A DNA stretch of 64,000 nucleotides from contig NZ_AP025018.1 of the NCBI RefSeq assembly GCF_019977735.1, forward strand, positions 6,142,580 to 6,206,579, in the 5' to 3' direction. Positions within the stretch are counted from its first letter, which is position 1. Each line of letters opens with the position of its first letter. This document shows, piece after piece, positions 32,916-56,305 of the stretch. The notes beneath the pieces are model-generated. The model did not search any database. It had not been told where the DNA came from and saw nothing but the letters and a program-made list of their open reading frames with translations. This stretch comes from Calothrix sp. PCC 7716 (GTDB taxonomy: Bacteria; Cyanobacteriota; Cyanobacteriia; Cyanobacteriales; Nostocaceae). The position numbers and the translations under genes are program-made.

Positions 32916-33133
32916 TCAAAGCTTGCTGTTAAAATATTCATAGAGGTTATTAATCATTCGATTAACTGTGATTGGACCAAATGCTTCCAAATTCGTTATT
33001 CTGCTAAATCCCCTGTTAAGGTATCAGGTTTTTGGATGAAAGGTTGGTAACAGACTGTAATTATAATAAAAGATAAAGCCATTAGTAAAAATATCTTTAT
33101 CAAACTATACATTGCGTTTTTGCTCGCACTCAT
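32916..33133 (-). pseudogene. Relic of a siderophore-binding lipoprotein gene
   Basis: The minus strand encodes MSASKNAMYSLIKIFLLMAL then SFIIITVC and about 17 more residues before a stop. This matches the N-terminus of the intact binding protein at 55286-56305 (KPFLLMALCFLLITAC). After a stop and frame change, EAFGPITVNRMINNLYEYF matches its C-terminus (DAYGPFGVNKLLNLLAKHL). About 250 central codons are missing. It lies directly downstream of a TonB receptor, the same place as the intact copies, so it is an internally deleted fecB-type gene. Confidence 0.75.
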
Positions 33134-33179
33134 TTTCTTGGTTGTCCGCAATCAATTAATGACTAACAGTTCTCGTCTT

Positions 33180-35855
33180 TTAAAACTCCCAACTGACCGA
33201 GCCTGTGATTGTAAAAGGCGCACCTCTCTGGACATAAGTGCTGCTATTTGCGAAGCTGGCATAGTCTGTATCAAATAAATTACGAATATTAATTGCTGCT
33301 CTAAGTCCTTCCCATCGATAGTAAAGTGCCGCATCAGTACGCAAGTAATTTGACAGCGTAAATGTGTTAGCTAGATCGCCTTGACGTTCACCAACGTAAA
33401 AGAGTCCCAAACCAAATCCTAAACCTTTGAGATTACCCTGCTGTATCTCATAGGTTGTCCACAGACTCGCTTGATTTGTGGGTACATTATTAAGTTGATT
33501 ACCAACCGAAATACTGTTATCCTTTGTTACTTCTGCATCCGTGTAAGCGTAGGAAGCAATGACCCTCCATCCGGGTAGAATCTCACCTGCAACATCTAGC
33601 TCAATCCCTTGACTTCGCTGCTCCCCAGTTTGAACGGAAAGGAATGGGTTAACTGGATCGGATGTTACCACATTGGTTTTCGTAAGGTGATAGGCGGCTA
33701 AGGTTGCTGAAAGTTTTTTTTCTAGAAAGTCTGTTTTAATACCGACTTCATACTGAGTACCTCTGGTTGGCTTAAATACCTGACCTGGGCTAAATGATGT
33801 GGTCTGGAGAAAAGAGCGGCTATAGCTTGCATATAGAGAAATTGTATCGCTGGGCTGATACACTAACCCAACGCGCGGGCTGAAAGCACCATCATTGACC
33901 GCTGGCTCATCAGTATCATTAAGGACTAATTCTAATTCATTGGATACCCAATCATAACGTCCGCCAATCAACAGCTTTAAGTTATTACTAAACGCTATCT
34001 GATCTTGAAAGTAAACTCCATAGGATTGAGTCAGTCGCTCGTACATAAAATCTTGGACTAAATCTGTGGGTCTTGCAACATTATATGTTGGGTTAAGCAA
34101 ATCTAAAGGAGGTATTGGACTGGTGAAAGATTTAAACGCCTGAGAGTTATCCTCATAATCGAAGCCCAATAAAAGTTGGTGTTCGATAGAACCTGTCTTA
34201 AATTTACTAAGCAAGTCGATCTGTCCAAAATAAACGTCAGTTGAATCAGTACGATCCAGGTAGAAAAACTCTACAAAACGATCGTCTACTACTGCTATAG
34301 GAACAGCAAATCTTTGCCCTGGAACGCTAAAGTTTTTTGCAGAAAAGGCACCGCGAATTTGCAAATTGTTATTAAAGTCATGCTTAAGCGCGAAGCCATA
34401 CTGATGATTTTGTCTTTCGTCAAAAGTAAGATCTGGATTGCCCCAAACATTAACGCCTCTAGGTACAAGACTACCATCACTGCGTGCCACAGTAAAAGTA
34501 TTACCATACAAGTCACCAGCGTATCTACTGAACTCATAGTATAAATCTAGGCTTGTTCTATCTCCCAAATTCAAGGTAATCGAAGGTGAGATTAGTGTAT
34601 TGTTCTTGCCACCACCATTAAAATAACCATCTGCACCGTTATAAGCGGCAATGAATCGATAGAGAACCTTTTTATCAGCAGTCAATGGACCCGATAAATC
34701 AATGCTTGGCTGATAAAATCCATAATTACCTACTTCCAAACCGAGCTTGTAATAAGGCTCTCTCTTAGGCTTTTTGGTGATAGTGTTTATAATTCCACCA
34801 GGTTCTAAAGCCCCAAACAAGACAGAGCCGGGTCCCTTGAGTACTTCCACTTGCTCGATCGCCACAGTAGGTTCCTCTGGGACAGTCAAATAGCTACTTC
34901 CTAAGCGATAGCCATTTCGTAATTGGGATGTTTCGGTTGTTGAAAATCCTCTGAAGATTCTGAATATACTATCTCCTCCGTCAAGGACTCCACTGACAGT
35001 TTCTACTGCCTCATTGACGGTTCTTACGTTGCGATCACGTAGTACTTCCTGGGGTACAACTTGAATAGACTGGGGAATATCTCGTATCGGCGTATCTGTC
35101 CGTGTTGCTGTACTCGCATTCGGCGCCCGATACCCATCTTGCTCTCCCGTCACCACCAACTCAATCGGGCCATCCTGCTGTGAGAAAGGTTTTTCTTGAG
35201 GTGCCTCACTTGCAGGCTTTTCTTGGGTTGGCGCCACTTCGGGCGGTTGTGTCGCTACAGACGCATTGACTACTGCAAAAATCAGTCCTGCATTATCATC
35301 AAATAACTCGACTGTAGGTAAAGTTTTCTCACCGACTACCGTTACACGTACAGTATTTGCATCAACATTTGTAACTGTTATTTGTGTAATTCCCGATATA
35401 GGATTTTCTGACTTAAAGGTGAAAGCGTCTCCTGAAGGTAAACGTAACTGCCCTCCAGTAATATCAGCAATAAAATTGTTATTTGCACTTCGATTCGTGA
35501 CTTGCAGTTTATCCCCTTGGGTTGTCTCTAAAATTACCTCTACACCTTTCTCTGTGGGATTTGCCTTTACACCCGTAATTGTTACAATACCCCCCTGTTT
35601 TTCACCTTGCGTAGAGGAGTCCGGATTTAAGGGGTTGGTTGGTGCTGGCGCCTGTCCCAACATGGTAGCACTCTTTGCAGGAAGTTCGATTTCGCTCAGT
35701 TGAGGAATTTCAGAAGTGATTACAGGGCTTATTTTGTGCCCAGTTCCTGATTTTTCCTCAGCCAATCCCGGTTGGATGCCTATTGCACTTAAACATCCAA
35801 ATATACTAATTACCAGCGATAAATTAAAATTACCGAGTAGCCACCAACGCTTCAT
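33180..35855 (-). CDS. TonB-dependent siderophore receptor with AMIN domain, cassette 1
   Basis: About 891 aa. The start at 35855 follows GGGAG in a GTGTGGGGAG leader shared with the receptor at 52569. It has a signal peptide (MKRWWLLGNFNLSLVISIFG..., cleavage after LAEE region), AMIN domain (VTITGVKANPTEKGVEVILE to GLIFAV), a proline/glutamine linker, and a plug starting ELVVTGEQDGYRAPNASTAT with RDIPQSIQVVPQEVL and VLKGPGSVLFG. The 22-strand barrel ends in GSVSWEF. The class is ferric hydroxamate/schizokinen-type. The barrel-encoding DNA has GATC sites and no GGCGCC, whereas the AMIN part has GGCGCC, so the gene looks mosaic. The upstream neighbour is an AraC regulator. Confidence 0.92.
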   Translation of the reverse strand: MKRWWLLGNFNLSLVISIFGCLSAIGIQPGLAEEKSGTGHKISPVITSEIPQLSEIELPAKSATMLGQAPAPTNPLNPDSSTQGEKQGGIVTITGVKANPTEKGVEVILETTQGDKLQVTNRSANNNFIADITGGQLRLPSGDAFTFKSENPISGITQITVTNVDANTVRVTVVGEKTLPTVELFDDNAGLIFAVVNASVATQPPEVAPTQEKPASEAPQEKPFSQQDGPIELVVTGEQDGYRAPNASTATRTDTPIRDIPQSIQVVPQEVLRDRNVRTVNEAVETVSGVLDGGDSIFRIFRGFSTTETSQLRNGYRLGSSYLTVPEEPTVAIEQVEVLKGPGSVLFGALEPGGIINTITKKPKREPYYKLGLEVGNYGFYQPSIDLSGPLTADKKVLYRFIAAYNGADGYFNGGGKNNTLISPSITLNLGDRTSLDLYYEFSRYAGDLYGNTFTVARSDGSLVPRGVNVWGNPDLTFDERQNHQYGFALKHDFNNNLQIRGAFSAKNFSVPGQRFAVPIAVVDDRFVEFFYLDRTDSTDVYFGQIDLLSKFKTGSIEHQLLLGFDYEDNSQAFKSFTSPIPPLDLLNPTYNVARPTDLVQDFMYERLTQSYGVYFQDQIAFSNNLKLLIGGRYDWVSNELELVLNDTDEPAVNDGAFSPRVGLVYQPSDTISLYASYSRSFLQTTSFSPGQVFKPTRGTQYEVGIKTDFLEKKLSATLAAYHLTKTNVVTSDPVNPFLSVQTGEQRSQGIELDVAGEILPGWRVIASYAYTDAEVTKDNSISVGNQLNNVPTNQASLWTTYEIQQGNLKGLGFGLGLFYVGERQGDLANTFTLSNYLRTDAALYYRWEGLRAAINIRNLFDTDYASFANSSTYVQRGAPFTITGSVSWEF

Positions 35856-36049
35856 AATTACTCCCCACACTTTGTTTATAAATCTTGCGACAGCAAAACA
35901 TTGCTGCTTTTAGCAGTCTCCGTAACTCTTTCGCTTCGGTACAATCTTCCGTATCACCAAGATAAAGACTATTGCAAATAATTATTAACTTTAGTAATGC
36001 TGAGTATAAAGGAGAGCTAGCAGCTAAATCTACCCCGAAACGGCAAGTA

Positions 36050-37042
36050 TTATCGTGAAACGGACAATTTACCCGCCAAGCATTCTTTAGGGGTAATGCC
36101 AAATTGACGCTTGAAAGCTGCGGCAAAGTGAGAGGTATTAGAATAACCTACCATCATTGCGACTTCTGTCACCGTCAGCTTGGAATTTCGCAACAAGCAC
36201 TGTGCTTTTTCCATTCTCTGGCTAGTCAAATAACCAAAGACCGTTGTGTTAAATAATTCCTGAAATCCTCTGCGGAGAGTTCGGTCACTGACTCCAACCT
36301 GAAGCGCTAAATCCAATAATGATGGGGGGTTTTCTAAATGAGAAAGTAATATTTCCCTAGCGCGATAAATGCAATCAATAGTTTCTGCCCTCAAACGTGG
36401 AGATGGTTGCCTTCTCTCTTGCTCTGCTAAAATTAGAGCTAATTGCAACGCCATTAATTCTACTACCTTACCTTGCAAATATATTCGCTTGGCAATTCCT
36501 TGGTAAGGACAGTTAACGATTTGCTGTGCCACTAACTGTACAGCAATTGTAGTTTCGGGATAAATAACTGTCTGCCAGTCGTTATCATTAGCAAACATTT
36601 TCAATTCGGGGGGAATTTGTCCATCCTCCCCAGGAAAAAAAGTTGCCAGTAATTGCGGTGGCATTTCGATGTTAACACCCACATACTTCTGCGATTTGGG
36701 ATGTATTTGAGTCCTTGACCGTTGAATTCCACCACCAGAAATAACTGTGTATCTTCCCCCAACTTGCCCAAAATCGTCTCTACATATTCCTGAGAGTAAA
36801 ACAGAAAATTGCAAGGGATGATTCCATTCGGGAACTTGGATTAGTACATCATTGTATTCACAATCTTCAATTGACAGACATAGTTCGGGATAAACTTCAA
36901 TTTCTTGCCTATAACCTCTGCCTAGTTGCTTGGGCACTTCGCAGCAGAATTCAAATGGTAAGAGCGCAGATTTGTACATACTGCTTTGTGCTGCTTCGTC
37001 CCATAGTTCTTCATCTTCTTTTAGCGTTAGAGTGATGCTCAT
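36050..37042 (-). CDS. AraC-family regulator (PchR-like), cassette 1
   Basis: 330 aa. The N-terminal region carries the PchR-type pattern (LGRGYRQEIEVYPELCLSIED, then YPYQG-like NCPYQGIAKRIYLQGKVVEL). The C-terminal DNA-binding region has helix-turn-helix motifs PPSLLDLALQVGVSDRTLR and VTEVAMMVGYSNTSHFAAAF, and ends FKRQFGITPKECL. It probably activates the receptor gene 195 bases downstream on the same strand in response to internalised siderophore. It is intact, unlike the AraC gene of cassette 3. The promoter side faces a 490-base gap with a C6/G6 repeat. Confidence 0.9.
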   Translation of the reverse strand: MSITLTLKEDEELWDEAAQSSMYKSALLPFEFCCEVPKQLGRGYRQEIEVYPELCLSIEDCEYNDVLIQVPEWNHPLQFSVLLSGICRDDFGQVGGRYTVISGGGIQRSRTQIHPKSQKYVGVNIEMPPQLLATFFPGEDGQIPPELKMFANDNDWQTVIYPETTIAVQLVAQQIVNCPYQGIAKRIYLQGKVVELMALQLALILAEQERRQPSPRLRAETIDCIYRAREILLSHLENPPSLLDLALQVGVSDRTLRRGFQELFNTTVFGYLTSQRMEKAQCLLRNSKLTVTEVAMMVGYSNTSHFAAAFKRQFGITPKECLAGKLSVSR

Positions 37043-37323
37043 GGTTGATGGCTTGTATAAATGGTCAGATTATCGCTATTCAATCTCAATAGGATTATCG
37101 CAATATATGGCCCTTTAAATCAATGTCAGCCATAAACAATGATATTATTTGTCACTAAAGCTACATATTTTGGTACAGGCGCCTTCTTTACGTAAATAAT
37201 TGCACATCTAGGGCGCCGGTTAACTAGAAGTGGTTGACATAAGGCTTTAATTATGCTTGTCTTAGAAATCGAAAATTGAGGCGCCCTTCAATACTGCAAG
37301 GGATAGCTATTTTCTTGGAACTA

Positions 37324-37400
37324 ATCCCCCCTGACCCCCCTTAATAAGGGGGGAAAATAGCGGCTTTTAGCCCCCCTTATTAAGGGGGGTTGGGGGGATT
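37324..37400. repeat. C6/G6 nested palindromic repeat, copy 3
   Basis: CCCCCCTTAATAAGGGGGG and CCCCCCTTATTAAGGGGGG within outer CCCCCC/GGGGGG arms, between divergently read regions. It lies in the 495-base gap 37043-37537, which otherwise has several GGCGCC sites and no gene. Confidence 0.75.
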
Positions 37401-37537
37401 TTATTCAAAACCTACGTAGTATTGAGGCGCCCTTGTATCGATGCTTTGGCTAAACGATTTAATCTAAAAATAAGAGTTTTACCCTGTAATATTAGTTTTC
37501 TGTGTAAGTTCAAGATAAAACTTTTACTAAGAGCGAC

Positions 37538-37969: not shown

Positions 37970-38158
37970 TGCAATATCTCTGAGAACATTGTAGTTATTG
38001 AGAAATAATATAAGTAATCATACCATACTCTTTGTCGTAGCATCTCCTCTAAATGAGGACTAAATAACTATTGTTATTTTTGTTACTTTCAATTGCCTTA
38101 ACCCAGTAGTAGCCTATGTCATTAATTCATAAATTACCGATATGTTATGATTTGTTTT

Positions 38159-38483: not shown

Positions 38484-38811
38484 ATTTTATAAAGAAACCT
38501 GGTTTCTAGATTTTCATGCGTAAGTCCTGTCTATAACATACCCTGAATTTGAGGATATACTACAAATTACTAAAATCTAGACCTTTGTCATGAGTTCAGA
38601 GGTTTTAAGAGTAAATATTTTTACCACAGAGGCACAGAGGGCACAGAGTAGAGGCAGGTAAAACTGAGGTTTTGCCGCTTTTATTAATTGTGTCTGTATA
38701 AAGGAATTTTTGTCTGGTGCCAACTAGCCAAAATACACCAACCAATTGAGAAATACAGAGAAATCATGTATACTTATTGAAAATTATTATTATTTGATTT
38801 GCGAAATCCCC

Positions 38812-39684
38812 ATGATAAGCCAAATTTCACAGTCAGATTGCACTAAAGGTTTTTCGGAAACTATTACAGAAGTTCCTCAACATCATGAAACTCAGATAAC
38901 AGAAATTTATCCAGAACACGAATATCCTTTAGAGTTTTATTTTAAGTTTAAAAGTGACGTTATCAATAACGTTGATTATGCTTCTATAAAGGTTGGTGAC
39001 ACTGCTTTGTGTGGTTGCGGAACGGCGCCGAAGATGTTATTTACTATGCCAAAACAAAACCAAGACATTGATATTCATATCGAACCGGAATTATTAAAAA
39101 AAATATTTGGTATTCAGGAGGATGCAATTCCAGAGTTACTAAAGCATCTGTTTCGTCAACCCGATGAAGAATATTCTGTTTGTACAGGAACAATTACAAC
39201 CCAAATGCAAGTTGTATTGCAGCAAATTTGGCAATGTCCATTTGAAGGTTTAATTAAAAAGGTTTATTTGGAAGCTAAAGTTTTGGAATTAATGGCTCTG
39301 CGACTACAACAGTATATGACGAGGGAAATTATTCAGTGTCATGAATATGAACCAAAGCGAACTGTAGCCGAGCAAATTTATCAAGCGAAGGAAATATTAG
39401 AAACTCGTTTGAACAATCCACCATCTTTAATTGAATTGGCAGAAGAGGTTGGACTTAGCCTTTATCAATTGAAGCATAAATTTCGCAAAGTTTTTGGTAA
39501 CAGTGTTTTTCAATATTTGCATCAATATAGGATGGAACAAGCGCGACTTATGCTGTATGACGGTAATATGCTTGTAGCAGATGTGGCTAATAGTGTTGGA
39601 TACTCCCACTTGGGGCAATTTTCTGCTGCATTTAAACGCATGTTTGGAATTAGCCCGCGCGATTGTCTCAAAGGAAAAATTTAA
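38812..39684 (+). CDS. AraC-family regulator (PchR-like), shortened duplicate
   Basis: 290 aa from ATG 38812. It is very similar to the regulator at 40293-41282, including its upstream DNA (AAATCATGTATACTTATTG is identical). It lacks about 35 residues near the N-terminus, where the homologue has the LGRGYIQEIELERGFSLAIG segment, so the sensing domain is incomplete. The DNA-binding part is intact: PPSLIELAEEVGLSLYQLK, VADVANSVGYSHLGQFSAAF, FKRMFGISPRDCL. It may be a constitutive, ligand-blind or decaying version. A DUF1636 gene separates the duplicates. No receptor gene is directly attached to this copy. Confidence 0.88.
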   Translation: MISQISQSDCTKGFSETITEVPQHHETQITEIYPEHEYPLEFYFKFKSDVINNVDYASIKVGDTALCGCGTAPKMLFTMPKQNQDIDIHIEPELLKKIFGIQEDAIPELLKHLFRQPDEEYSVCTGTITTQMQVVLQQIWQCPFEGLIKKVYLEAKVLELMALRLQQYMTREIIQCHEYEPKRTVAEQIYQAKEILETRLNNPPSLIELAEEVGLSLYQLKHKFRKVFGNSVFQYLHQYRMEQARLMLYDGNMLVADVANSVGYSHLGQFSAAFKRMFGISPRDCLKGKI

Positions 39685-39775: not shown

Positions 39776-40165
39776 ATGACTAAATCTACTCTCTTTGTTT
39801 GCAAATCCTGCTGCATCTCCGAAGACCACCCAGAAGACCAGCCAGCAGACGGCGCCGTTCTTCTAGAAAAAGTTCAAACTCACCAGTCCAACAATCCCGA
39901 ATTTAATAATATTCGAGTTCAACCCACCAGTTGCCTCTGGGACTGTGGTCGTGGCTGCGTCATCGCCTTCTCCGCTTCTCGCAAACCCACTTACGTCTTT
40001 AGCACCGTTACCCCAGAATCCGCTCCAGCACTCTTACAATTCGCCCAAAAATACACTCAAAGCAAAACAGGCAACATTTCCTACGACAAATTTCCCGAAG
40101 AATTAAAAGAAATCCCTATTACTAAAGTTCCCGGCATTACACATGAGGCGCCGGAGAGTCAATAG
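39776..40165 (+). CDS. DUF1636 family ferredoxin-like protein
   Basis: 129 aa. LFVCKSCC gives the N-terminal C-x2-C, and SCLWDCGRGC gives the second cysteine cluster, as in thioredoxin-like ferredoxins. The C-terminal segment (YDKFPEELKEIPITKVPG) is the usual family ending, unlike the copy at 7319. It probably binds a 2Fe-2S cluster; role unknown. It lies between two near-identical AraC regulators and may have been carried along in their duplication. G+C is higher than in neighbouring genes (many CCC codons), which sets it apart in composition. Confidence 0.8.
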   Translation: MTKSTLFVCKSCCISEDHPEDQPADGAVLLEKVQTHQSNNPEFNNIRVQPTSCLWDCGRGCVIAFSASRKPTYVFSTVTPESAPALLQFAQKYTQSKTGNISYDKFPEELKEIPITKVPGITHEAPESQ

Positions 40166-40292
40166 AAGCGGTGCAGTTAACTCAAAATTTCATGAGTTGA
40201 TAAAAGTAAGTAGATACACCAACTAATTGAGAATCAGAGAGAAATCATGTATACTTATTGCAAATTATTTTTATTTGACTTGCGAAATTCCT

Positions 40293-41282
40293 ATGACAGC
40301 CGAATTGTCACAGCCAGGTTACTCAAATTGCTTGCCAACTGCTGAAGAAGATAAAATTCTCGATTGCAGCAAAGGTTTTTCGGAAATCATTAACTCATAT
40401 CCCCAGGAATTAGGACGGGGTTACATTCAAGAAATTGAACTAGAACGAGGCTTTTCACTGGCAATTGGAGATTATCAACATCATGAAACTCATATAACCG
40501 AAGCTTACCCAGAACAAGAACATCCTTTGCAGTTTTCTTTTCGACTTACTGGTGACGCTATTAGCAGTGTTGATTATGCTTCGATAAAAGCTGGTGAAAC
40601 TGCTTTGTGTGGTTGTGGAATGGCGCCAAAGATGTTATTTACTATACCAGACCCAAACCAAGAGATTGATATTCATATCGAACCGGAATTATTTAAAAAA
40701 ATATTTGGCATTCAAGATGATGCCATTCCAGAGCTACTAAAGCACCTGTTTCGTCAACCCGACCAAGAGTATTCTGTTCGTATGGGAACAATTACAACCC
40801 AAATGCAGGTTGCATTACAGCAAATTTGGCAATGTCCATTTCAAGGTTTAGTTAAAAAGGTTTATTTAGAAGCTAAAGTTTTGGAATTAATGGCTTTGCG
40901 ACTGCAACAGGATATGGCAGGGGAGATTATTCAGTGTCATGAGTATAAGCCAAAACGCACTGTTGTCGAGCAAATTTATCAAGCCAAGGAGATTTTAGAA
41001 AGTCATTTGGAAAATCCGCCGTCTTTAATTGAATTAGCACAAGAGGTTGGACTTAGCCTTTATCAATTGAAGCAGAGCTTTCCCAAAGTTTTTGGTAAAA
41101 GTGTTTTTCAATATTCGCATCAATATCGGATGGAACGAGCTAGGCTTTTGCTGTATGAAAGTAATATGCGTGTTGCTGATGTAGCAAATTGTGTAGGGTA
41201 TTCCCACTTGGGGCAATTTTCGGCTGCATTTAAACGGATGTTTGGAATTAGTCCGCGCGACTGTCTTAAAGGAAAAGTTTAA
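40293..41282 (+). CDS. AraC-family regulator (PchR-like), cassette 2
   Basis: 329 aa from ATG 40293, the full-length member of the duplicated pair. It has an N-terminal sensing domain with QELGRGYIQEIELERGFSLA, GETALCGCGMAPKML and an FKKIFGIQDDAIPELL helix, then QCPFQGLVKKVYLEAKVLEL, and two helix-turn-helix motifs (PPSLIELAQEVGLSLYQLK, VADVANCVGYSHLGQFSAAF). It lies upstream of the frameshifted TonB receptor at 41699 on the same strand. The shared 5' region has an AT-rich segment (TTGCAAATTATTTTTATTTGA part) that may be a Fur or self-regulatory site. Confidence 0.9.
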   Translation: MTAELSQPGYSNCLPTAEEDKILDCSKGFSEIINSYPQELGRGYIQEIELERGFSLAIGDYQHHETHITEAYPEQEHPLQFSFRLTGDAISSVDYASIKAGETALCGCGMAPKMLFTIPDPNQEIDIHIEPELFKKIFGIQDDAIPELLKHLFRQPDQEYSVRMGTITTQMQVALQQIWQCPFQGLVKKVYLEAKVLELMALRLQQDMAGEIIQCHEYKPKRTVVEQIYQAKEILESHLENPPSLIELAQEVGLSLYQLKQSFPKVFGKSVFQYSHQYRMERARLLLYESNMRVADVANCVGYSHLGQFSAAFKRMFGISPRDCLKGKV

Positions 41283-41698: not shown

Positions 41699-44316
41699 AT
41701 GAAGCTACAAAAATTGTTACAAATATTGTCTGTTTCAAGTTCGGTCTGGGTTTTAGTGGTAAATGCTGCGACTGCTGAGGATTTTCCAGCTGCAACGGGT
41801 GAGATACCATACCTAAATCAAGTTGAATTTTCTGGGAAAAGTGCGTATCAGTTAGTACAAACACCAGCATCTCAAGGGGAAAAACAGAGGGGTGCTGTAA
41901 TAATTACGGGTGTAAAAGCAAATCCTACCGAGAAAGGTGTGGAAGTGATTTTAGAAACAACCCAAGGGGATCAATTGCAAGTTGCTAATCGCAGTACTGG
42001 TAATAATTTTATTGCTGATATCACTGGTGGGCAGTTACAATTAGCTTCTGGAGATGCTTTCACTTTTCGTTCGGAAAAACCTATATCGGGTATTACTGAG
42101 ATTACTGTTACTAATATTGATGCAAATACCGTTCGGGTGACGGTGGTAGGAGAGAAAAATTTACCTGCGGTTGAGTTATTTGATGATAATACTGGGCTGA
42201 TTTTTGCTGTAGCATCCACGTCCGTAGCGACACAGCCACCCCAAGCACCACCTGAAGAAGAAAAGCCAGCAACCGAGGCGCCCTTTGAAAAGCCTACAAC
42301 GCAGCAGGATGAGCCAATTGAGTTGGTAGTAACAGGAGAGCAAGATGGGTATCGCGTCTCAAATACTACAACTGGGACAAGAACCGATACACCTTTGCGT
42401 GACATTCCTCAATCGATTCAGGTAATACCACAACAAGTGTTGCGTGACCAACAAGTTACTCGTTTAGATGATGCGCTTAGAAATATTGCTGGTGTAACTC
42501 CAGAATTTACTGATGGACCAGGTGTATACTATAGAATTCGTGGATTTGACTTATCAAATAATAATTTGCTCAGAAATGGATTACCCGATCCTGGGGTTGG
42601 AGATTCGGTTGAACTTGCCAATGTTGAACGAGTCGAAGTCCTCAGAGGACCAGCATCCGTGCTATTTGGCTTAGGTAATCCGGGGGGAAACATCAATATC
42701 GTCACAAAATCTCCCTTGAGTGAGCCTTTTTATGCTGTTGATGCAACTGTTGGCAGCTATAGTTTCTACAGAGGTGCAGTTGATCTCTCTGGACCGTTAA
42801 ATAACTCAAAAACCGTATTGTATCGCCTCAATACAGCCTACAGAAATTCGGGTAGTTTTGTAGATTCTTATAGTAGTGAAAACTTCAATATCTCACCCAC
42901 AATCAGTGTGGCAATTGGTGATAAAACTAACCTAACTTTAGGCGCCGATTACATCGAGACTAGAGATTCCGGAATAGAATTTGGTGTACCGACTGTTGGC
43001 ACTATATTTACCAACCCTAACGGTAAAATTCCCCGTAATCGCAACCTGACTGAACCTACGGATAAAATAGAGGGAACAACTACAAGGATTGGGTATGAGC
43101 TAGAACATAAATTTAGCGACAATTGGTCTTTGAGGAACGCTTTTCGGTATGGTTTTCGTAGTTACTATGGTGAACAAACCAGACCTGGAAGTTTGGATGC
43201 AGACAATCGAACTATTAACCGCTCTTTTGAGATATATGACCAAGATTTCACGAACTATACTCTCACAACAAATATTGTTGGTAAGTTTGCTACTGGTTCA
43301 ATTCAGCATCAGCTTCTATTTGGGGTTGATTTGAATCGTTATAAAAACGCAACACCAAGATATGCGTCTGCTGATGCTGCATCAATTGATATATTTAATC
43401 CTGTTTATGGTCAACCAAGAGGGGAGTTTAATTTTGAAGCTATCAATGAAGCAACAATAGATTCATTAGGAATTTATCTTCAAGATCAAATCGCGATAAC
43501 AGAAAATTTGAAGGTATTGTTGGCGCGCGGTTTGATGGTTTTAATCAGATATCTGAAGATTTTTTGTCTAACACAGAAAGCAGCTTGTCAGATAGTGCCT
43601 TAAGTCCTCGATTTGGAATTGTCTATCAACCCGTCTCTGCGATTTCGCTGTATGCCAGTTATATCAGTTCATTTACTCCAGCACAAGGCACATTTCTTTT
43701 TGGTGCGAGTTTACAGACTGCTTTTAAACCAGAACGTGGTAGACAGTATGAGATTGGTGTCAAGGCAGATTTTAGCAATAAACTTTCGGCAACACTGGCT
43801 TTCTATGATTTAACTCGTACCAATGTATTAGTAGAGAATCCTAGTAATCCAAATTTTCAAATTCAAACGGGTGAGCAGAACAGCCAAGGGTTTGACCTAA
43901 GTTTGGGAGGCGAAATTCTTCCAGGTTGGAACATTTTTGCAGGTTATGCTTATACTGATGCACGTATTACCGAGGATACCGTTTTTAAAGTTGGGAGTCG
44001 TTTGCCCAATACCGCAGATCATGCTTTTAACGTATGGACAACCTACCAAATTCAAAAAGGTGACTTACAAGGGTTAGGCTTTGGTTTAGGTTTGTTTTTT
44101 GTGGGCAGTCGCGCTGGAGATTTGGACAATACTTACGATGTACCGAGTTATCTTCGGACTGATGCAGCAATTTTTTACAACAGAGAAAGATTTAGAATTG
44201 GACTCAATTTCAAAAACTTATTTGATGTAGAGTATTTTGAAAGGACTTATTTTGGCGGCCGTGTTGGCTATGGACAGCCCTTTACGGTTCAAGGAACAGT
44301 TTCCTGGCAGTTTTAA
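41699..44316 (+). pseudogene. TonB-dependent siderophore receptor, cassette 2, frameshifted
   Basis: Two frames, 41699-43603 and 43564-44316, together encode one AMIN-TonB receptor of about 872 aa. It has a signal peptide, AMIN (IITGVKANPTEKGVEVILE), a plug (ELVVTGEQDGYRVSNTTTGT, VEVLRGPASVLFG) and a barrel ending GTVSWQF. At about 43521 the DNA reads TTGGCGCGCGG; inserting one G restores NLKVLLGARFDGFNQISED across the junction. A one-base deletion therefore truncates the protein in the barrel. It could be a true pseudogene or a sequencing error in a GC-rich run. The intact binding protein gene follows 14 bases downstream. Confidence 0.85.
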
Positions 44317-44330
44317 TTATTGAGACAATC

Positions 44331-47074: not shown

Positions 47075-47094
47075 AAGATTCTTTTATATATTTA

Positions 47095-48786
47095 GGGTTT
47101 GCTGAAAAAGAAGGAAAAGCTGACACTCCAAGATTATCAGCCTAAAGAAATATATTCAGGTGCAAGACAAGAGGGTAAGATGACCTAAAATCCTTGCATC
47201 TGCGTGAATAGCACAAAAGTGCTAATTTAGTAACCATGTACCGAAAACAGGGGCAGCCGACTATCTCAGCAGAAAACTTTGAACTTCCGGTTGGGGGAAA
47301 GTTATCAGAAGATAATCGTTGGGTGATTATGGCTTCTTTCATACCTTGGTCGGAATTTGAAGAAGAATATTCTTCTTATTTCTCAATCGAGATGGGGGCG
47401 CCAGCAAAGTCGTTTCGTATGGCGTTAGGCGCATTAATAATTAAAGAGAAACTGGGCATAAGTGATAGAGAAACAGTGGAACAAATTAGAGAGAACCCTT
47501 ACCTACAATACTTTATAGGAATGTTATCTTATAGTAATGAAGTTCCTTTTGATGCATCAATGCTAGTTCATTTTCGCGAAAGAATCAGTGTGGAACTAGT
47601 TAATAAAGTGAATCAAGGAATGGTAAAAAATATGATAGCATCTGCATCTTCAATTGGCGCCGAAAAAAAACAGAAGAAACAGAAGAAGAAGGTAATACAC
47701 TAAAAAACCTTGGAAAATTGATATTAGATGCGACTTGTGCGCCAGCAGATATCAGCTATCCAACAGATTTAGAACTATTAAATCAAGCCCGAAAACAGAC
47801 AGAACGAATAATAGACCTTCTTTATGAACAAATAAAGGGGACATTAGAGCAAAAACCAAGAACTTATCGAGAAAAAGCTAGGAAAGACTATCTAGAAGTA
47901 GCGAAGAAACGTCGTGTATCCCAAAAAGATAGGAGAAAAGCGATTAAAAAGCAACTCCAGTATATAAAAAGAAATTTATCTCACATTGACAACTTAATTC
48001 AACTAGGAGCGTCACTAGAAAAATTAACTAATAGACAATATAAGTTGCTACTTGTAGTTGCAGAAATTTATCGTCAGCAACTATGGTTGTATGAAAATCA
48101 AAAACAGAGTATTGACGACCGTATTGTTAGTTTAACTCAACCGCATATCCGCCCAATAGTCCGAGGTAAAGCAGGTAAGGCAGTTGAATTTGGCGCTAAA
48201 TTATCAGCTAGTTACTTTGATGGGTATGTTTTTCTAGACCATATAAGTTGGGATAATTTTAATGAATCAGGAGATTTAAAATCACAAATAGAAGCATATA
48301 AAAATTATACTGGTTATTATCCAGAATCAGTTCATGTTGATAAAATTTACCGAACACGAGAAAACCGAGCTTGGTGTAAAGAAAGAGGTATTATAATGAG
48401 TGGGTCTCCATTAGGAAGACCTCAGAAGAACGTTAGTAAAGAAAAAAAGAAGCAAGATTTAGAATCTGAGAGAATTCGTAATTCTATTGAAGGAAAGTTT
48501 GGGCAGGGTAAGAGAAGATTTAGTCTCAATCGAGTGATGGCGAAACTGCCTTATACTTCTGAAACTGCAATTGCTATTACTTTTTTAGTAATGAATCTTT
48601 CTACTTACCTTTCACGGGTTTTTTATGCCTTTTTATATCTATTTTTCAAAAATAGACCTTTTTTAAAGCTTAATATAATTAGATATTATAGTTTACTAAT
48701 AATCTAGAACGAAAACTTATGCTTGATTTTGCTTGAATAACAGGTCAACCCATAAGATTGTTTTTTCATACTTTTTCAGCAAGCCC
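47095..48786. mobile_element. IS5-like insertion sequence
   Basis: A 1.69-kb element bounded by inverted ends: the left end reads GGGTTTGCTGAAAAAG and the right end, inverted, reads GGGCTTGCTGAAAAAG (one mismatch in 16). It carries one transposase in two frames. The flanks are different genes on each side, with only TA in common, and the AAA ATPase on the right side is cut off, so a deletion probably accompanied or followed insertion. Confidence 0.85.
47236..48707 (+). CDS. IS5-like transposase in two frames joined at an A8 slippery site
   Basis: The upstream frame (47236-47703) encodes the N-terminal domain (GAPAKSFRMALGALIIKEKL, IRENPYLQYFIG, VPFDASMLVHFR). The downstream frame (47718-48707) encodes the catalytic part beginning LILDATCAPADISYP, with further motifs GYYPESVHVDKIYRT and EGKFGQGKRRF. 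They are offset by -1. The junction lies at GAAAAAAAACAG (about 47660), where re-reading one A gives EKKTEETEEEGNTLKNLGKL in a continuous 490-residue protein. Programmed -1 frameshifting or transcriptional slippage is typical of such IS, so the gene may be functional rather than broken. Confidence 0.8.
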
Positions 48787-49728: not shown

Positions 49729-49860
49729 TACTGCGGTTCGGCGCCGAAGTTGTATGCTACATCAGAATTAAACTAAGATATTGATATTCAAATTTAACGG
49801 GAATTATTTGGCATTTTTGGAGCAAGCGCTGCTAAAGTACCTGTTTTTGCTTTACTGAAC
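49729..49860 (+). pseudogene. Decayed AraC regulator fragment
   Basis: TGCGGTTCGGCGCCGAAGTT and the following DNA align with the CGCGMAPKML...DIDIHIEPELFKKIFGI region of the neighbouring PchR-like regulators. It reads CGSAPKLYATSELN-stop-DIDIQI-stop-RELFGIFGAS, i.e. with two internal stops and divergence. Only about 45 codons remain, just upstream of another, later-disrupted AraC gene. Confidence 0.6.
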
Positions 49861-50077
49861 GGCGCCTGTTGCGGTAAAATATTGGTAATTTTTATCATTA
49901 AGTAGTGAATTTATTAGAAGAATTACCATGACTATTAATATTACATCTAATGAGTGGTCAGATTTGCTTGATCAAAATAAACAGTATGAGATTATAGACC
50001 CAAAAAATGCCCATGTAGAAGTTCTTTGCAATTGCCCAGAAGAACTAGGTAGCGGATATATTTTATATAAAGAAATA

Positions 50078-51513
50078 GGTTCTTCAGTAGTTGTTATGCT
50101 AAATTGTTAAATATAGATGTAAATAATTATTAACTTATTTTAAAAAATATTACAAAAAAGCTTGATGGCATTGACTTGTAAGCCTTATTTATTATTGACT
50201 ATATATATAATTATTGTATTTTAGGGTACATTTACAGTCATGGTCAATAAAAAAGATATAAAAATCTTATCACAAATTCTGGATATAGACGAAGTAAAAG
50301 TTATATCGCACAGCATTTATAACGAAATTGGAATAATTTTACGAACAGAGCCAATAAAGCTGTATAGTGTATGTCCATCTTGTGGTACGGAAAGCCATAA
50401 ACTACATCAAAACCATCGTCATATTATTAAAGATTTACCTTTTGGAGAGAAACCAATTTTTTTAGAAATAAATCGGCGCCAATTTAAATGCAGAATTTGT
50501 AAAAAACCCTTTAGTGAAGAATTTGACTTTGCAAGAAAGAAAAGAACTTATACAAATCGGCTTGCAAATCAAATAATACAAGAAGTTTTAGAAAACGACA
50601 TACATAGCGTAGCATCAAAAGGTATAGTTACAACAGAAGAGATAGAAAGAATGTTAAAAGATGCATCTGAAAAACTAAATTTAACAAAACCTAAAAATTT
50701 AAAAAGGCTTGGAATTGATGAAATAGCTTTAAGAAAAGGAAAGGGTAATTACTGTGCAGTGCTAATAGATTTAGATACATCTAAACCAATCGCTATTTTG
50801 AACGCGCGTACACAAGGAGTAATCGAGGAAGTTCTTATCGGTTGGGGAGTTGAGGTCTTAGAGCAAATTAAAGAAGTGAGTATAGATTTATGGCAAGGGT
50901 ACAAAAATTTAGTGATAGAATTAATGCCTAACGTTCAAGTCGTCGCCGATAGATTTCACGTAATGGTGCAAGTAAATAAAGAATTAGACACACAGAGGAA
51001 GAGAGAAAAGTACAAAATAGAGGAATTAATTAAATTAGCAGAAACATCTGAAAAGAAAGATGAGTACGAAAAAATATTAGAAGGTTTGAAAAATAGTAAA
51101 TATGCTTTACTCAAAAATGAAAAGGACTTAAATGAAGAACAAATCAAAAAATTAATTCAAGTTAAAGCTGTATCTCCTACTTTAAAAATGATGCATGAAT
51201 TAAAGGAAAAACTTAGAATAATTTTTAATAAAACTAATCATTGGTATCCAGCAGTATTTAAATTAGGTATGTGGCTTTCAAAAGCTAAAACATATTTCCC
51301 AAATAGCAATAACACTTTTATTCGTTGGTTTGATGAAATTATTGCTTATTTTGATAATGGCACTACTAGCGGCGCCGTTGAAGGTATCAATAATAAAATT
51401 AAATTAATTAAGCGCTCCGCTTATGGGTTTAGAAATTTTGAAAATTTCCGAGTTCGATGCTTATTAGCTTGGCACTTTAATTGTTAGTTTAGCATAACAA
51501 GTACTGAAGAACC
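50078..51513. mobile_element. ISL3-family insertion sequence, complete
   Basis: 1436 bp with terminal inverted repeats GGTTCTTCAGTAGTTGTTAT (left) and, inverted, GGTTCTTCAGTACTTGTTAT (right), continuing six more bases to GCTAAA; one mismatch in 26. It is flanked by the 8-bp target duplication AAGAAATA (50070-50077 and 51514-51521), the size typical of ISL3. It contains one intact transposase gene. Confidence 0.95.
50240..51487 (+). CDS. ISL3-family transposase
   Basis: 415 aa. An N-terminal zinc-finger region with two C-x2-C pairs (CPSCGTESHKLHQNH, FKCRICKK) is followed by a DDE nuclease core. GIDEIALRKGKGNYCAVLID holds the first Asp, VVADRFHVMVQVNKELD the second, and the C-terminal TSGAVEGINNKIKLIKRSAY holds the Glu. 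All three are present and the frame is intact, so the element may still be active. It is transcribed in the same direction as the gene it interrupts. Confidence 0.93.
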   Translation: MVNKKDIKILSQILDIDEVKVISHSIYNEIGIILRTEPIKLYSVCPSCGTESHKLHQNHRHIIKDLPFGEKPIFLEINRRQFKCRICKKPFSEEFDFARKKRTYTNRLANQIIQEVLENDIHSVASKGIVTTEEIERMLKDASEKLNLTKPKNLKRLGIDEIALRKGKGNYCAVLIDLDTSKPIAILNARTQGVIEEVLIGWGVEVLEQIKEVSIDLWQGYKNLVIELMPNVQVVADRFHVMVQVNKELDTQRKREKYKIEELIKLAETSEKKDEYEKILEGLKNSKYALLKNEKDLNEEQIKKLIQVKAVSPTLKMMHELKEKLRIIFNKTNHWYPAVFKLGMWLSKAKTYFPNSNNTFIRWFDEIIAYFDNGTTSGAVEGINNKIKLIKRSAYGFRNFENFRVRCLLAWHFNC

Positions 51514-52568
51514 AAGAAATAAACTACGGCTTAACCCTTGAAGTTCAGAAATACCAGTTCTATATACCGATTAAGCTAGATATTGGTAATACATACGATC
51601 ACCCAATACAAATGACTTTTTATATTTCTGGTAATCAGTTAAGTAATAGTCCAAAATATGAAGATTTATATCGCTCTTCTGAAAATTCGTTTTGTGGTTG
51701 CGGAACGTCGTTTAATCAAGTTCACACATTTTTTGCAGAAGAACCTATTTGTATGATTGATATTCATATTGAGCCAGAATTATTTAAAACTTTTGCAGGA
51801 ATAAAAGAAGATGTAATTCCATCCGAGTTACAGCATTTATTTAGGAAGCAATATGAAGATTATTTTATTGGTAAAAGCACTACAACTGCCCAAATGCAAA
51901 TTATATTGCATCAAATATTACAGTGTCCATATGAAGGTGTAGTCAAGCGTTTATATCTGGAAAGTAAAATCATAGAATTAATGGCATTACGGTTACAACA
52001 AGAAGTCGAAACAAAAACATTTTATTCAAATGATTTAATTAAACCAGATACATTAGATAAAATTTACCACGCAAAGAACATTTTAGAGCATAATTTGGAA
52101 AATCCACCTTCTTTATCAGAGTTAGCAGAGCAAGTTAAACTTAGTCACCACCAGCTAAAATGTGGATTTCGTCAATTATTTGGAATGACAATTTTTCAAT
52201 ATTTACATCAATATAGATTAGACAAAGCACGACAGCTACTATATGAAGGCAACATGCGTATTGCTGAAATAGCTAATATAGTTGGCTATTCGCATTTGGG
52301 AAGATTCGCTGGTGCTTTTAAAAAGAAATTTGGTATTAGCCCAAGTCAGTGCTTAAAGGGGGATATTAGTAAAACTAGCGACTGATACAAACAGATGTCA
52401 ACAAAAGTAATATTCAATACTCAGTAGTAACTTTTATGGATAGGTTTTTTGTCAAAACTGGATAGACAGGTTTGTTTAAAAGCCCTTAAACTCATCTCAC
52501 ATCTTATTGAAAATCTTTCTTGGTAGTTACAACACCAAATTTAGATATAGTGTGGAGTGTGGGGAGCT

Positions 52569-55211
52569 ATGAGGCAAATTTGGACTTCTAATTCAATTTT
52601 CAACTACATATTTTGGCTAATTGTGTCGTACTTAGCTTGTATAAATCCAGCTTTAGCGGATGAAGCAAGTAAAAACATTCTTCAACTGGGTGAAATCGAA
52701 CTTCCAGCGACTAGCGCTCAAATGTTGGTACAGACACAAAATAACACTCCCAATCCAGAACAAAGAAGCGGGGAGCAAGTTGTAACAATTACGGGTGTAA
52801 AAGCAAATCCCACCGATAAGGGTGTGGAAGTAATTTTAGAAACAACTCAAGGGGATCAACTACAAGTTGCAAATCGCAGTACTGGTAATAATTTTATTGC
52901 TGATATCACTGGTGGGCAATTACGATTATCCAACGGCGATGCTTTCACTTTTCGTTCCGAGAAACCTATATCGGGAATTACTGAGATAACAGTTACCAAT
53001 ATTAATGCGAATACTATACGGGTGACGGTGGTAGGGGAGAAAACTTTGCCTGTTGTTGAGTTATTTGATGATAATGCAGGGTTGATTTTCGCAGTTGCAT
53101 CTACTACAACGGCAGCACAGCAACCTGAAAAACCATCAACTGAAGAAAAGCCAGTGAGCGAGGCGCCGCAAGAAAAACCAGCCGCGCGCCAGGATGATCC
53201 GATTGAGTTGGTGGTGACAGGAGAGCAGGATGGGTATCGGGCGCCAAATGCTTCGACGGCGACGCGGACGGATACGCCCATTCGGGATATTCCCCAGTCT
53301 ATTCAAGTTGTACCGCGACAGGTGCTAGAAGATCGCGATGTGCAAACTGTAAGTGAGGCAGTAGAGACTGTCAGCGGTGTAATTGAAACCCGTTCAAGTT
53401 TTGGTGGTTCTTCACCTATTGCTAATCTTAGGTCTATTCGAGGATTTCAGCAGGAAGACTCCAATCTCCGAAACGGTTTACGTGATGCATCTTTTCTTGG
53501 TATTTCTCCAATTGGAACGATTGAGCAGGTAGAAGTGTTGAAAGGACCTGCCTCTGTTTTGTTTGGAGCAGTCGAACCAGGTGGGGTCATTAACTTGATT
53601 ACCCGGCAGCCTTTGGCTGAACCTTACTACAAACTAGGATTTGAAGCAGGGAGCTTTGGACGGTATCAACCCAGCATTGATTTGTCAGGGCCTTTAACTA
53701 CAGATAAAAGCGTACTTTATCGGTTCATCGCTGCCTATCAGGGTGGAGGGGAGTTTCAAGATTCCACCAAAGCTCAGACAACAACCATTGCACCCTCACT
53801 CACATTCAGACTAGGAGATCGAACAAACCTCAATCTTTACTATGAGTACGGTAGGTACTATGCAGATCCTGCTACCTACCAAGTCCCTATTCTCAGTGAT
53901 GGTCGCCTGCCGCCTGCAAGTTTTTATCCTATCTATTTTCAGTCACTTAATTCTGAGAATCATCGATTGGGCTATACCCTGAATCATGAGTTGAACGATA
54001 ATTGGCAGATTCGTAATAACCTTGCTATTAATTTCAATACCTATTTACTTCGAGAGACCTTTTACTCAGATTTATTGAACGATCGCTTTCTGACGGGGTT
54101 TGGAGCTTCTACATCTAATGTTACATCTAGTAACTATGTTGGGCAAATCGACTTAATTGGAAAGTTTAAGACTGGCTCAATCTTCCATCAACTTCTAGCT
54201 GGTTTTGATTTCAACCGCTCTATATCCTATTCTGGAAGAACTAATGGCTCAGGCAGTTTGCCCGATCTAGATATTTTCAACCCAAATTATGATGTCCCAA
54301 AACCTGAATTCCCATCTGCTCCCTTTACCGACTTAGACATTAATCAGTCCTACGGAGTTTACCTTCAAGATCAAATTACTTTTAGCGATAACCTGAAGAT
54401 GCTGATTGGTGGTCGCTACGATTGGATATCTTCCAGTGGATTTAGACCTATTGATAGCGATGATCCATACCAAAATGACGGAGCCTTTAGTCCCAGAATC
54501 GGCTTGGTATATCAGCCCAGCAAAAATGTTTCACTTTATACTAGCTACAGCCAATCATTTCGTCCATCAATAGGACGTAACCCAGATAATAAACCGTTTG
54601 AGCCAACCAGGGGAACTCAATATGAAGTCGGCGTTAAGGCTGATTTTCTCGACGGTAGACTTTCAACTACTCTAGCTGCCTATAATCTCACAAAAACGAA
54701 TGTGCTGACTCCCAATCCTGATCCTGAACTGGCAAGGGAGGGTTTCCAAGTACAAGTTGGGGAACAACGGAGTCGCGGAATTGAATTAGATGTTACGGGT
54801 GAAATTTTACCCGGTTGGAGGATCATTGCCTCCTATGCTCTCACGGACGCACAAGTGACCGCCGATAATTCCATACCCAGTCAAGTTGGTAATCGTCTTG
54901 TATCTGTGCCACAAAATCAAGCGAGTCTCTGGACAACTTACATAATTCAGGGCGGGAATTTGCAAGGGCTGGGATTTGGATTAGGACTATTTTATATTGG
55001 TGAGCGACAAGGTGATCTAGCAAACTCATTTCAACTAAAGGATTATTTGCGAACTGATGCAGCGATTTACTACCGTCGAGGCGGATTTAATACGGCGATC
55101 AATGTCCGTAATCTCTTCAACATCGACTATGTTAGGAATACCTTCGGCACACTCTATGTTAACAGAGGAGAACCGCTGACCATCACTGGCTCTGTTAGTT
55201 GGGAGTTTTAA
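52569..55211 (+). CDS. TonB-dependent siderophore receptor with AMIN domain, cassette 3
   Basis: About 880 aa from ATG 52569; a GTG at 52557 is the alternative, but GTGTGGGGAG there is the same leader seen before the receptor at 33180-35855. It has a signal peptide (IFWLIVSYLACINPALA), AMIN (VTITGVKANPTDKGVEVILE to GLIFAVA), a linker, a plug (ELVVTGEQDGYRAPNASTAT, RDIPQSIQVVPRQVL, VLKGPASVLFGAVEPGGVIN) and a barrel ending GSVSWEF. It is closely related to the cassette 1 receptor. GGCGCC sites stop at 53242, at the plug boundary; from there GATC sites appear, so the barrel part looks imported. A binding-lipoprotein gene follows. Confidence 0.92.
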   Translation: MRQIWTSNSIFNYIFWLIVSYLACINPALADEASKNILQLGEIELPATSAQMLVQTQNNTPNPEQRSGEQVVTITGVKANPTDKGVEVILETTQGDQLQVANRSTGNNFIADITGGQLRLSNGDAFTFRSEKPISGITEITVTNINANTIRVTVVGEKTLPVVELFDDNAGLIFAVASTTTAAQQPEKPSTEEKPVSEAPQEKPAARQDDPIELVVTGEQDGYRAPNASTATRTDTPIRDIPQSIQVVPRQVLEDRDVQTVSEAVETVSGVIETRSSFGGSSPIANLRSIRGFQQEDSNLRNGLRDASFLGISPIGTIEQVEVLKGPASVLFGAVEPGGVINLITRQPLAEPYYKLGFEAGSFGRYQPSIDLSGPLTTDKSVLYRFIAAYQGGGEFQDSTKAQTTTIAPSLTFRLGDRTNLNLYYEYGRYYADPATYQVPILSDGRLPPASFYPIYFQSLNSENHRLGYTLNHELNDNWQIRNNLAINFNTYLLRETFYSDLLNDRFLTGFGASTSNVTSSNYVGQIDLIGKFKTGSIFHQLLAGFDFNRSISYSGRTNGSGSLPDLDIFNPNYDVPKPEFPSAPFTDLDINQSYGVYLQDQITFSDNLKMLIGGRYDWISSSGFRPIDSDDPYQNDGAFSPRIGLVYQPSKNVSLYTSYSQSFRPSIGRNPDNKPFEPTRGTQYEVGVKADFLDGRLSTTLAAYNLTKTNVLTPNPDPELAREGFQVQVGEQRSRGIELDVTGEILPGWRIIASYALTDAQVTADNSIPSQVGNRLVSVPQNQASLWTTYIIQGGNLQGLGFGLGLFYIGERQGDLANSFQLKDYLRTDAAIYYRRGGFNTAINVRNLFNIDYVRNTFGTLYVNRGEPLTITGSVSWEF

Positions 55212-55285
55212 CTTGTGCTTTGTGCTAATTATTGGTCAATTAGCACAAATTACCATAAAGTTTAATGCTGTAGATAGCAAGTAGA

Positions 55286-56305
55286 ATGAATGTGAACAAA
55301 CACCTGATGAATTATAGGGTAATAAAGCCATTTTTACTAATGGCTTTATGCTTTCTTTTGATTACAGCCTGCAACAGTTCAGAGATTCAACTCAGTAACA
55401 TTTCAACCCAACGTGCGCCCGATATTGCTGAGTGCCGAGTTGTCGAACATCCCCTAGGTAAAACCTGCATTCCCCTTAAACCCCAGCGTATTATTTTAGA
55501 GTCTGCATTTCTCGATCCCCTGTTTGCGCTTGGAATTAAGGAATCAATTGTAGGTACGAATTGTTACCCCATGTGGTGGGTAGCTAAAGGTTGTTTTGCC
55601 TCTGGCTTATCATCTAATCAGTTAGAAGGTATAGAGACAGTGGGTAACTATCCGCCCTCTTTAGAAAAAGTTCTGTTTCTAAAACCAGATTTAATTTTGT
55701 GGTCTGATTATATTAAATCAATGTATCATCAGTTATCAGATATTGCACCTACTGTGACAATACATTGGGATGATTTCCAATACTCTTTTAAAGATTATCT
55801 TCGACACCTTGCCCAGATTTTTGACCGTGAAGAAGTTGCAGAAGAGATTTTGCTGCAATATCAAAATCGAATTACAGAAGTGCGAAAACAGTTGGGCGAT
55901 CGGCTGCAAAATGCAGAAGTTTCTGTAATTATCTATGGTTGTGCGGGTAATAATGGATTTTCATTACCGCCAAGATACGCGATCTGGTTTCAGATTTTAG
56001 ATAATCTTGGCATTAAAATTAAGCCGATATTTTCAATGAGTCAAAAGGTTTGGTGTAGTAACTTTGATAGTATTGAGACTATAAATAATTATGATTCTGA
56101 TATTCTATTTATTGCAAACTTTCACAGCAAATCAGGAGCTTTTCTACTGGAAAAGCCGCTTGTCTCTTCACTCAACGCAGTTAAGAATGGACGTGCTTAT
56201 GTCATAGATGGTCAAGATGTATGGGATGCCTATGGACCATTCGGAGTAAATAAATTACTAAATTTGCTGGCTAAACATTTGTTAAAAGCCGCACAAACTT
56301 TTTGA
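55286..56305 (+). CDS. Siderophore-binding lipoprotein (FecB/FhuD-like), cassette 3
   Basis: 339 aa. The lipoprotein signal ends FLLITAC (Cys about residue 29). The family opening CRVVEHPLGKTCIPLKPQR follows, then KPDLILW and a C-terminal YVIDGQDVWDAYGPFGVNKL. It is intact and, like the receptor upstream, has GATC sites but no GGCGCC, so receptor barrel and binding protein seem to share a foreign origin. It is the full-length homologue of the deleted relic at 32916-33133. No permease is nearby, so it probably shares an inner-membrane transporter encoded elsewhere. Confidence 0.9.
   Translation: MNVNKHLMNYRVIKPFLLMALCFLLITACNSSEIQLSNISTQRAPDIAECRVVEHPLGKTCIPLKPQRIILESAFLDPLFALGIKESIVGTNCYPMWWVAKGCFASGLSSNQLEGIETVGNYPPSLEKVLFLKPDLILWSDYIKSMYHQLSDIAPTVTIHWDDFQYSFKDYLRHLAQIFDREEVAEEILLQYQNRITEVRKQLGDRLQNAEVSVIIYGCAGNNGFSLPPRYAIWFQILDNLGIKIKPIFSMSQKVWCSNFDSIETINNYDSDILFIANFHSKSGAFLLEKPLVSSLNAVKNGRAYVIDGQDVWDAYGPFGVNKLLNLLAKHLLKAAQTF

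Follow-up and report, generated by a model that had tools for sequence, protein, structure and literature searches.

Why should three neighbouring copies of one gene cassette each have a different gene broken? The question is raised by a stretch of 64,000 nucleotides of Calothrix sp. PCC 7716 (called the window below; C1:6142580-6206579 in a 12.37-Mb genome of 10 contigs, labelled G000). A first-pass annotation had found there three paralogous cassettes, each with an AraC-type regulator, a TonB-dependent receptor and a binding protein, and had suggested that they could complement each other or that partial losses are tolerated because components are shared. Taken singly, the three cassettes belong to a known kind, and their decay is nothing unusual. 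Taken together, they are very probably birth-and-death modules in a metal-scavenging island, which is carried as cargo by a 164.6-kb interruption element splitting nifH. The main interest is this location, which could not be seen from the window.

The element splitting nifH covers C1:6121934-6286546, corresponding to -20645 to 143967 in window numbering, and the entire window lies inside it. The core ACTCC is found at 6121934 and at 6286542, giving an element of 164,608 bp. To the left of the island are nifS, nifU and nifH, in that order, where nifS and nifU were recognised by reading of the open reading frames (ORFs). The 5' part of nifH (PF00142, E 3e-134) ends in ...LTIPTP and leaves its frame at the border, at 6121938, and is directly followed by a serine recombinase with Resolvase, Recombinase and Zn-ribbon domains. 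The 3' end of nifH is located at about 6286547-6286652, just before nifD. Joining of the two flanks gives a NifH of 295 residues, identical at 292 of them to the unsplit nifH of the congener G005. The ratio of nonsynonymous to synonymous substitutions (dN/dS) is 0.094-0.126 for the recombinase in six of six pairs of four genomes, and by this measure of the sequence the recombinase is under purifying selection; for the 5' part of nifH it is 0.039-0.054 in three of three pairs, including those with G001 and G005. The genes at the start of the element share the orientation of the recombinase, fitting the rule for interruption elements in the consulted part of PMC4874684 (all papers cited here were consulted in part).

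Two other genes of this nif cluster are also irregular. The nifB gene (by reading; its second part carries PF02579) is apparently split by about 17 kb at C1:6100258-6117607, and its parts adjoin each other in G002. The nifD gene, running from C1:6288172 onward, stops at GGATTACTCCG, which is the published repeat of the nifD element (PMC3610870); an exact-pattern search for the nifD 3' end gave 0 matches. Because nifB is split and nifD stops at an element repeat, there are probably three elements in this nif cluster.

Receptors were counted by a genome-wide PF00593 search together with tblastn using the cassette proteins and the ORF list, and AraC genes were counted genome-wide as relatives of AraC 1 at E up to 1e-15. 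The genome has 21 PF00593 barrel matches, and 17 of them lie between C1:6125390 and 6283692. These represent 14 receptor loci, and one fragment without a barrel match gives a total of 15, eight with a full-length frame (780-899 amino acids, aa) and seven broken. The broken loci are receptor 2 of the cassettes, a fragment 72% identical to receptor 1, one receptor without its 5' part, one split by three ORFs (two were tested, both with phage-integrase domains), two split by insertion sequence (IS) elements, of the DDE_Tnp_1 type with internal loss and of the DDE_3/HTH two-ORF type, and one with its 3' end cut by an ISL3 copy that also abuts a shortened binding protein. This ISL3 copy (C1:6281927-6283144) is near-identical to C1:6103839-6105056 (99.9% over 1302 bp). 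Four receptor matches are off the element, three of them frames of 955, 922 and 684 aa and one with an in-frame stop (9.06 Mb), and the element carries 8 of the 11 receptors with a full-length frame in the genome. Binding proteins (PF01497) have 17 matches in the genome, 11 of them on the element, where 10 are full-length. AraC relatives also have 17 matches, 14 of them on the element, including 11 genes of at least 326 aa, and tandem AraC pairs occur at four places (C1:6181325-6183861, which is cassette 2, 6219279-6221382, 6230483-6232790 and 6249567-6251742). The FecCD permease has nine matches in the genome, five of them full-length, two of those on the element. The earlier count of two intact copies of each component is thus too low, and the repeated duplication and decay that had been noted is more extensive than claimed.

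The remaining cargo was named by NCBIfam profiles unless marked as by reading. Outside the cassettes the island holds a second flavodoxin, a third Fur-family regulator beside the window, and HemB, ThrS and FolE, which pass the cut-offs. A CobW/ZigA-like GTPase and one zinc- or manganese-type ATP-binding cassette (ABC) transporter score below the curated cut-offs, and a second set of such transporter genes was recognised by reading alone. In Anabaena the Zur regulon includes TonB-dependent receptors, a zinc transporter and COG0523 proteins as well as zinc-protein paralogues (PMC10957091), and we infer that HemB, ThrS and FolE of the island are paralogues of this kind.

The location was compared among seven genomes of the genus, the present one and G001-G006. 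Four genomes (G000, G001, G002 and G003) have an element near codon 261 of nifH, and their recombinases are 93-95% identical; the element is complete in G002, where it measures 60.8 kb. Near codon 139, nifH is split by 11.3 kb in G002, by 120.3 kb in G004 and by 8.4 kb in G006, and we infer a further split at this site in G003. Receptor genes lie inside a nifH element in five of the seven genomes, near codon 261 in G000-G003 and near codon 139 in G004, making up 1 of 11 receptor matches in G001, 1 of 4 in G002, 1 of 6 in G003 and 2 of 6 in G004; G000 is the one genome in which the element holds the majority (14 of 18 loci with a barrel match). The odds of this placement (p 0.0016 for G004, p 0.02 for G002) are not used as proof, as tandem duplication and common descent break independence. 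Cargo resembling this island is mostly 79-88% identical in G001 and 88-96% identical in G003, and one receptor that is interrupted in G000 is open in G003 (725-aa frame). Relatives of IsiA, Fur and an ABC exporter are present in the G004 element (C7:2257717-2378062), along with those of receptors, AraC and binding proteins, and only a weakly similar recombinase (29%) was found beside its border, so the cargo is not tied to one recombinase. The first 85 nifH codons of G004 were not found within the 160 kb retrieved.

Every lesion that the first-pass annotation described for the three cassettes is present (Table 1). In cassette 1, AraC 1 and receptor 1 are full-length with the expected domains, and the best-scoring solved relatives of receptor 1 are the enantio-pyochelin receptor and FhuA. 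Its binding protein is indeed reduced to its ends: a match to residues 1-55 of binding protein 3, interrupted by a stop in frame, lies at 33133-32981 (E 1.7e-7 when three short stretches were searched), and the C-terminal match at 32987-32931 is weak (E 0.027). In cassette 3, an ISL3 element interrupts AraC 3 and is flanked by the 8-bp target duplication AAGAAATA at 50070-50077 and 51514-51521, a length typical of ISL3 insertion sequences, and receptor and binding protein are intact. The extra binding-protein fragment and AraC relic were recovered as well, and the relic beside AraC 3 suggests a former tandem AraC pair. A twin of cassette 3 lies at C1:3329047-3332706, with a receptor 80% and a binding protein 82% identical (dN/dS 0.18 and 0.27, respectively) and no AraC match in the 20 kb retrieved there. 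In 40 other genomes, binding protein 3 is matched over its full length at no more than 48% identity and by one 65-residue piece at 51%; as the best match is so distant, there is no relative with an intact cassette 3 among them. For cassettes 1 and 2, the comparison with congeners was limited to the stretches retrieved around nifH elements.

Cassette 2 differs from its first description in having two tandem AraC genes instead of one (70.7% over 351 columns), the first about 39 residues short; the intact binding protein and the frameshifted receptor, which reads in two frames, were as described. Among its relatives, the receptor 2 pieces are in one frame at 12 of 12 orthologous places (named genomes, both pieces matched side by side). 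The pieces together have a dN/dS of 0.15-0.25 against seven orthologues, compared to 0.15-0.28 among the orthologues themselves, and the branch of receptor 2 (0.109) is not longer than that of its sister (0.149). Receptor 2 thus gives no sign of relaxed selection, and its frameshift is either recent or an assembly error. We regard an assembly or base-calling error, with cassette 2 fully intact, as a serious possibility which we do not quite favour; the single frame at all 12 places, the dN/dS and the branch length are what such an error would leave, and a very recent mutation would give the identical picture. Such an error would be compatible with birth and death of cassettes in the island. 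Binding protein 2, with relatives 65-77% identical from Nostoc and other named Nostocales in a listing that may omit near kin of this genome, has a dN/dS of 0.24-0.35 against six orthologues (0.17-0.42 among those), so relaxed selection is not evident in this intact partner either.

A few observations were made around cassette 2 and its relatives. An IS transposase in two frames, with DUF772 and DDE_Tnp_1_2 parts, lies between cassettes 2 and 3 at 47236-48707. In a Trichormus metagenome-assembled genome (L028:14905-15839), a relative of binding protein 2 is in two frames and adjoins an open receptor, a lesion complementary to the receptor 2 frameshift. A short second C-terminus of a receptor, perhaps left by an exchange of partners, separates receptor and binding protein in the stretches L034 and L035.

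It was further suggested that the cassettes could cross-complement; on this reading they would form a mutually complementing set in which each is kept for what the others lack. We find this improbable. A different component is lost in each of the three cassettes, and undirected decay would also hit different components, given seven broken receptor loci of 15. Many other intact copies are present on and off the element, including the cassette 3 twin, and nothing singles out these three. Furthermore, receptors 1-3 are mutually only about 47-59% identical, and their ligands may therefore differ. The more general idea of component sharing is supported indirectly. In Synechocystis, three AraC regulators upstream of TonB-dependent receptors are redundant (PMC11221513), a point that would also favour a complementing set and makes the loss of AraC 3 likely harmless. 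With 17 binding-protein matches against five full-length FecCD permeases, the permeases are probably shared. Receptors and binding proteins have also been re-paired among relatives, as complementation would allow, for example receptors 91% identical with binding proteins 47% identical. Among 36 pairs, giving 630 comparisons that share loci and are biased because the loci were picked by likeness to binding protein 2, both proteins were at least 60% identical in 109, the receptor was at least 60% and the binding protein below 52% identical in 63, and the reverse was found in 8 (r 0.65 over all comparisons). Of the three components, the receptor is the one whose loss would most probably cost the cell a particular ligand.

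Several points weigh against reading the island as the cargo of an element that excises. The sequence common to both borders, ACTCC at the gene junction, is short and uncertain as a direct repeat, whereas the published nifH1 element uses a tyrosine recombinase and an 8-bp repeat (PMC3610870). A second, unsplit nifH is present as a 333-aa frame at C1:4657129 (4.66 Mb), and the split copy need therefore not be essential. The contigs of G001 and G003 end inside the codon-261 element, G005 has no element at either nifH site (although such an empty site in a relative is itself expected of an interruption element), and the 8.4-kb nifH element of G006 has no match to any island receptor. The in-frame stop in the off-element receptor indicates that decay is not special to the element. 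It could accordingly be argued, from the second nifH and the 5-bp repeat, that the split is permanent, with an element that no longer excises, the second nifH fixing nitrogen and the island sitting at a dead locus. We consider this unlikely, since a dead gene and its recombinase would decay: dN/dS is 0.04-0.05 for the nifH 5' part and about 0.1 for the recombinase in all six pairs, and the joined product is still nearly identical to that of G005. An assembly artefact as the source of the split was rejected, as G001, G002 and G003 share the left border and the recombinase, and G002 has the right border too.

Both this element and the known interruption elements split a gene by DNA with its own recombinase (PMC4874684). 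In that survey nifH is among the targets, with 19 elements in 6 variants, lengths reach nearly 1 Mb, and gene content is highly variable with few genes in common. The present element differs in its size, 164.6 kb compared to a mean of 41.5 kb, and in its metal-scavenging cargo; the words siderophore and TonB are absent from the main text of PMC4874684, the supplement of which may list a variant at this nifH position. The nifH1 element of Nodularia spumigena also interrupts nifH, and its rearrangement is reported to have been shown to be active, but it is 5.2 kb long with the tyrosine recombinase XisG, 8-bp repeats and two further ORFs (PMC3610870). Three AraC-receptor-binding-protein cassettes in a row, as here, are found in Anabaena PCC 7120 (alr2587-alr2597; likened by description, not by sequence), without mention of lesions in the consulted part of the source (PMC3610870). 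The same strain has 22 receptors, 4 named and 18 others (PMC10792254). In the IutR system of Synechocystis, AraC/PchR-type genes also lie upstream of receptors, in three copies only (PMC11221513). The AraC genes found here have the AraC HTH domain and the position upstream of a receptor gene that define the PchR/IutR type, and receptors 1 and 3, with Plug and TonB-dependent barrel, are predicted siderophore receptors of the FhuA type. The cassette architecture is therefore already known. Iron-uptake cargo on an interruption element was described in none of the titles and abstract openings surveyed, which exclude supplements and most subscription papers, and metal-starvation cargo on a nifH element is apparently new with respect to the literature examined.

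The three cassettes are present in the window as annotated, but its receptor total is higher, with five receptor loci including those at 9692-12343 (heme type, passing the TIGR01786 cut-off) and at 23745-26282, the latter with an AraC gene at 26624-27703. This receptor and its AraC have relatives 85% and 81% identical in the G001 nifH element. An ORF beside feoB, at 30823-31173, has a weak MntR match only (E 2e-4). Beyond the window follow the N-terminal part of an AraC (66078-66386) and the receptor fragment 72% identical to receptor 1 (66652-67302).

Table 1. Positions of features in the window (window numbering)
Feature	Position	Strand	Remarks
Probable heme uptake set	7864-13316	+	FecCD-type permease, ATPase (by reading), heme-type receptor, binding protein
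IsiA-like chlorophyll-binding protein and flavodoxin (isiAB-like)	15341-16988	+	
Further full-length receptor and AraC	23745-27703	-	Absent from the first-pass annotation
feoB	28245-31173	-	FeoB 3.7e-258; adjacent small ORFs feoA-like by reading
Fur-family regulator	31926-32795	+	C-terminal extension; E 7e-21, below curated cut-offs
Binding-protein remnant, cassette 1	32931-33133	-	N-terminal end and weak C-terminal end
Receptor 1, full-length	33180-35870	-	AMIN, Plug, TonB_dep_Rec barrel domains
AraC 1, full-length	36050-37042	-	HTH_18 E 1e-23
AraC 2a	38746-39684	+	Shorter than AraC 2b by about 39 residues, in the N-terminal half
DUF1636 protein	39776-40165	+	Between AraC 2a and 2b
AraC 2b, full-length	40227-41282	+	
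Receptor 2, N-terminal frame	41699-43603	+	AMIN, Plug; frame lost near 43.52 kb
Receptor 2, C-terminal frame	43564-44316	+	250 aa
Binding protein 2, full-length	44331-45284	+	PF01497 E 9e-26
AraC relic adjoining AraC 3	49732-49842	+	46% over 39 aa, two stops, E 3e-4
AraC 3, first 50 codons	49928-50077	+	
ISL3 element	50078-51513	+	Transposase DDE_Tnp_ISL3 E 1e-61; 39-nt inverted ends, 82% complementary
AraC 3, remainder	51522-52385	+	Includes HTH domain; ORF called 51612-52385
Receptor 3, full-length	52557-55211	+	Plug and TonB-dependent barrel
Binding protein 3, full-length	55286-56305	+	PF01497 (Peripla_BP_2) domain
Binding-protein fragment	57461-57592	+	52% over 44 aa, E 2e-8
Second Fur-family regulator	61445-61975	+	E 1e-25, below curated cut-offs
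Further broken AraC, C-terminal end	63939-64000	-	Continues to 64043 beyond the window

Genes of other kinds are interspersed. A Septu-type PtuA/PtuB pair lies at 57700-59650 (PADLOC E 8e-142 and 1e-79), and a gene near it, at 56822-57256, has a partial PD-Lambda-2 match. The element also holds an AbiLi-like ATPase (L011:3358-4674) and a Fic protein with a SoFic match (L011:982-1962), the gene of which sits between parts of a broken AraC. Across 224 kb of island, GGCGCC occurs 350 times compared to 10.8 times expected from base composition, and the HIP1 sequence GCGATCGC occurs twice; an excess of GGCGCC has previously been described in Calothrix PCC 7103 (PMC4390886).

The following mechanism is proposed. 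In vegetative cells the integrated island would supply uptake of chelated, heme and ferrous iron together with photosystem functions under iron stress, and probably also uptake of zinc or manganese. As judged from the protein families, the receptor would pass a ferric chelate across the outer membrane, the binding protein would hand it on to an ABC permease, and the AraC protein would activate genes under iron shortage. Action of the serine recombinase during heterocyst formation probably restores a continuous nifH and sets the island free in circular form. Turnover of cassettes inside the island would involve gain, duplication and re-pairing as well as breakage through IS elements and deletions. 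Single losses may be tolerated, since AraC acts in trans, the few permeases serve many binding proteins and there are further receptors.

Broken cassettes seen through a window of this size can be misread, and the larger unit is the 165-kb element. Interruption elements are often treated as selfish DNA. A coherent metal-starvation cargo would give the cells a concrete reason to keep such an element, and the supply of iron would be linked to the locus of nitrogenase. We put forward, tentatively, that the nifH elements of this lineage are carriers of metal-starvation islands, and that each heterocyst, when its nitrogenase is assembled, thereby removes from the chromosome most receptor-based iron uptake, an IsiA-like gene and zinc/manganese-type transporters. 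This makes it testable whether heterocysts lose metal-uptake genes or keep them on the circle. Related cargo lies at two nifH sites, at about codon 261 in G000 and about codon 139 in G004, with different recombinases, and on this reading the cargo would either have moved between elements or have been collected twice, the location itself being favoured. The division of labour between vegetative and nitrogen-fixing cells would then be enforced by genome rearrangement.

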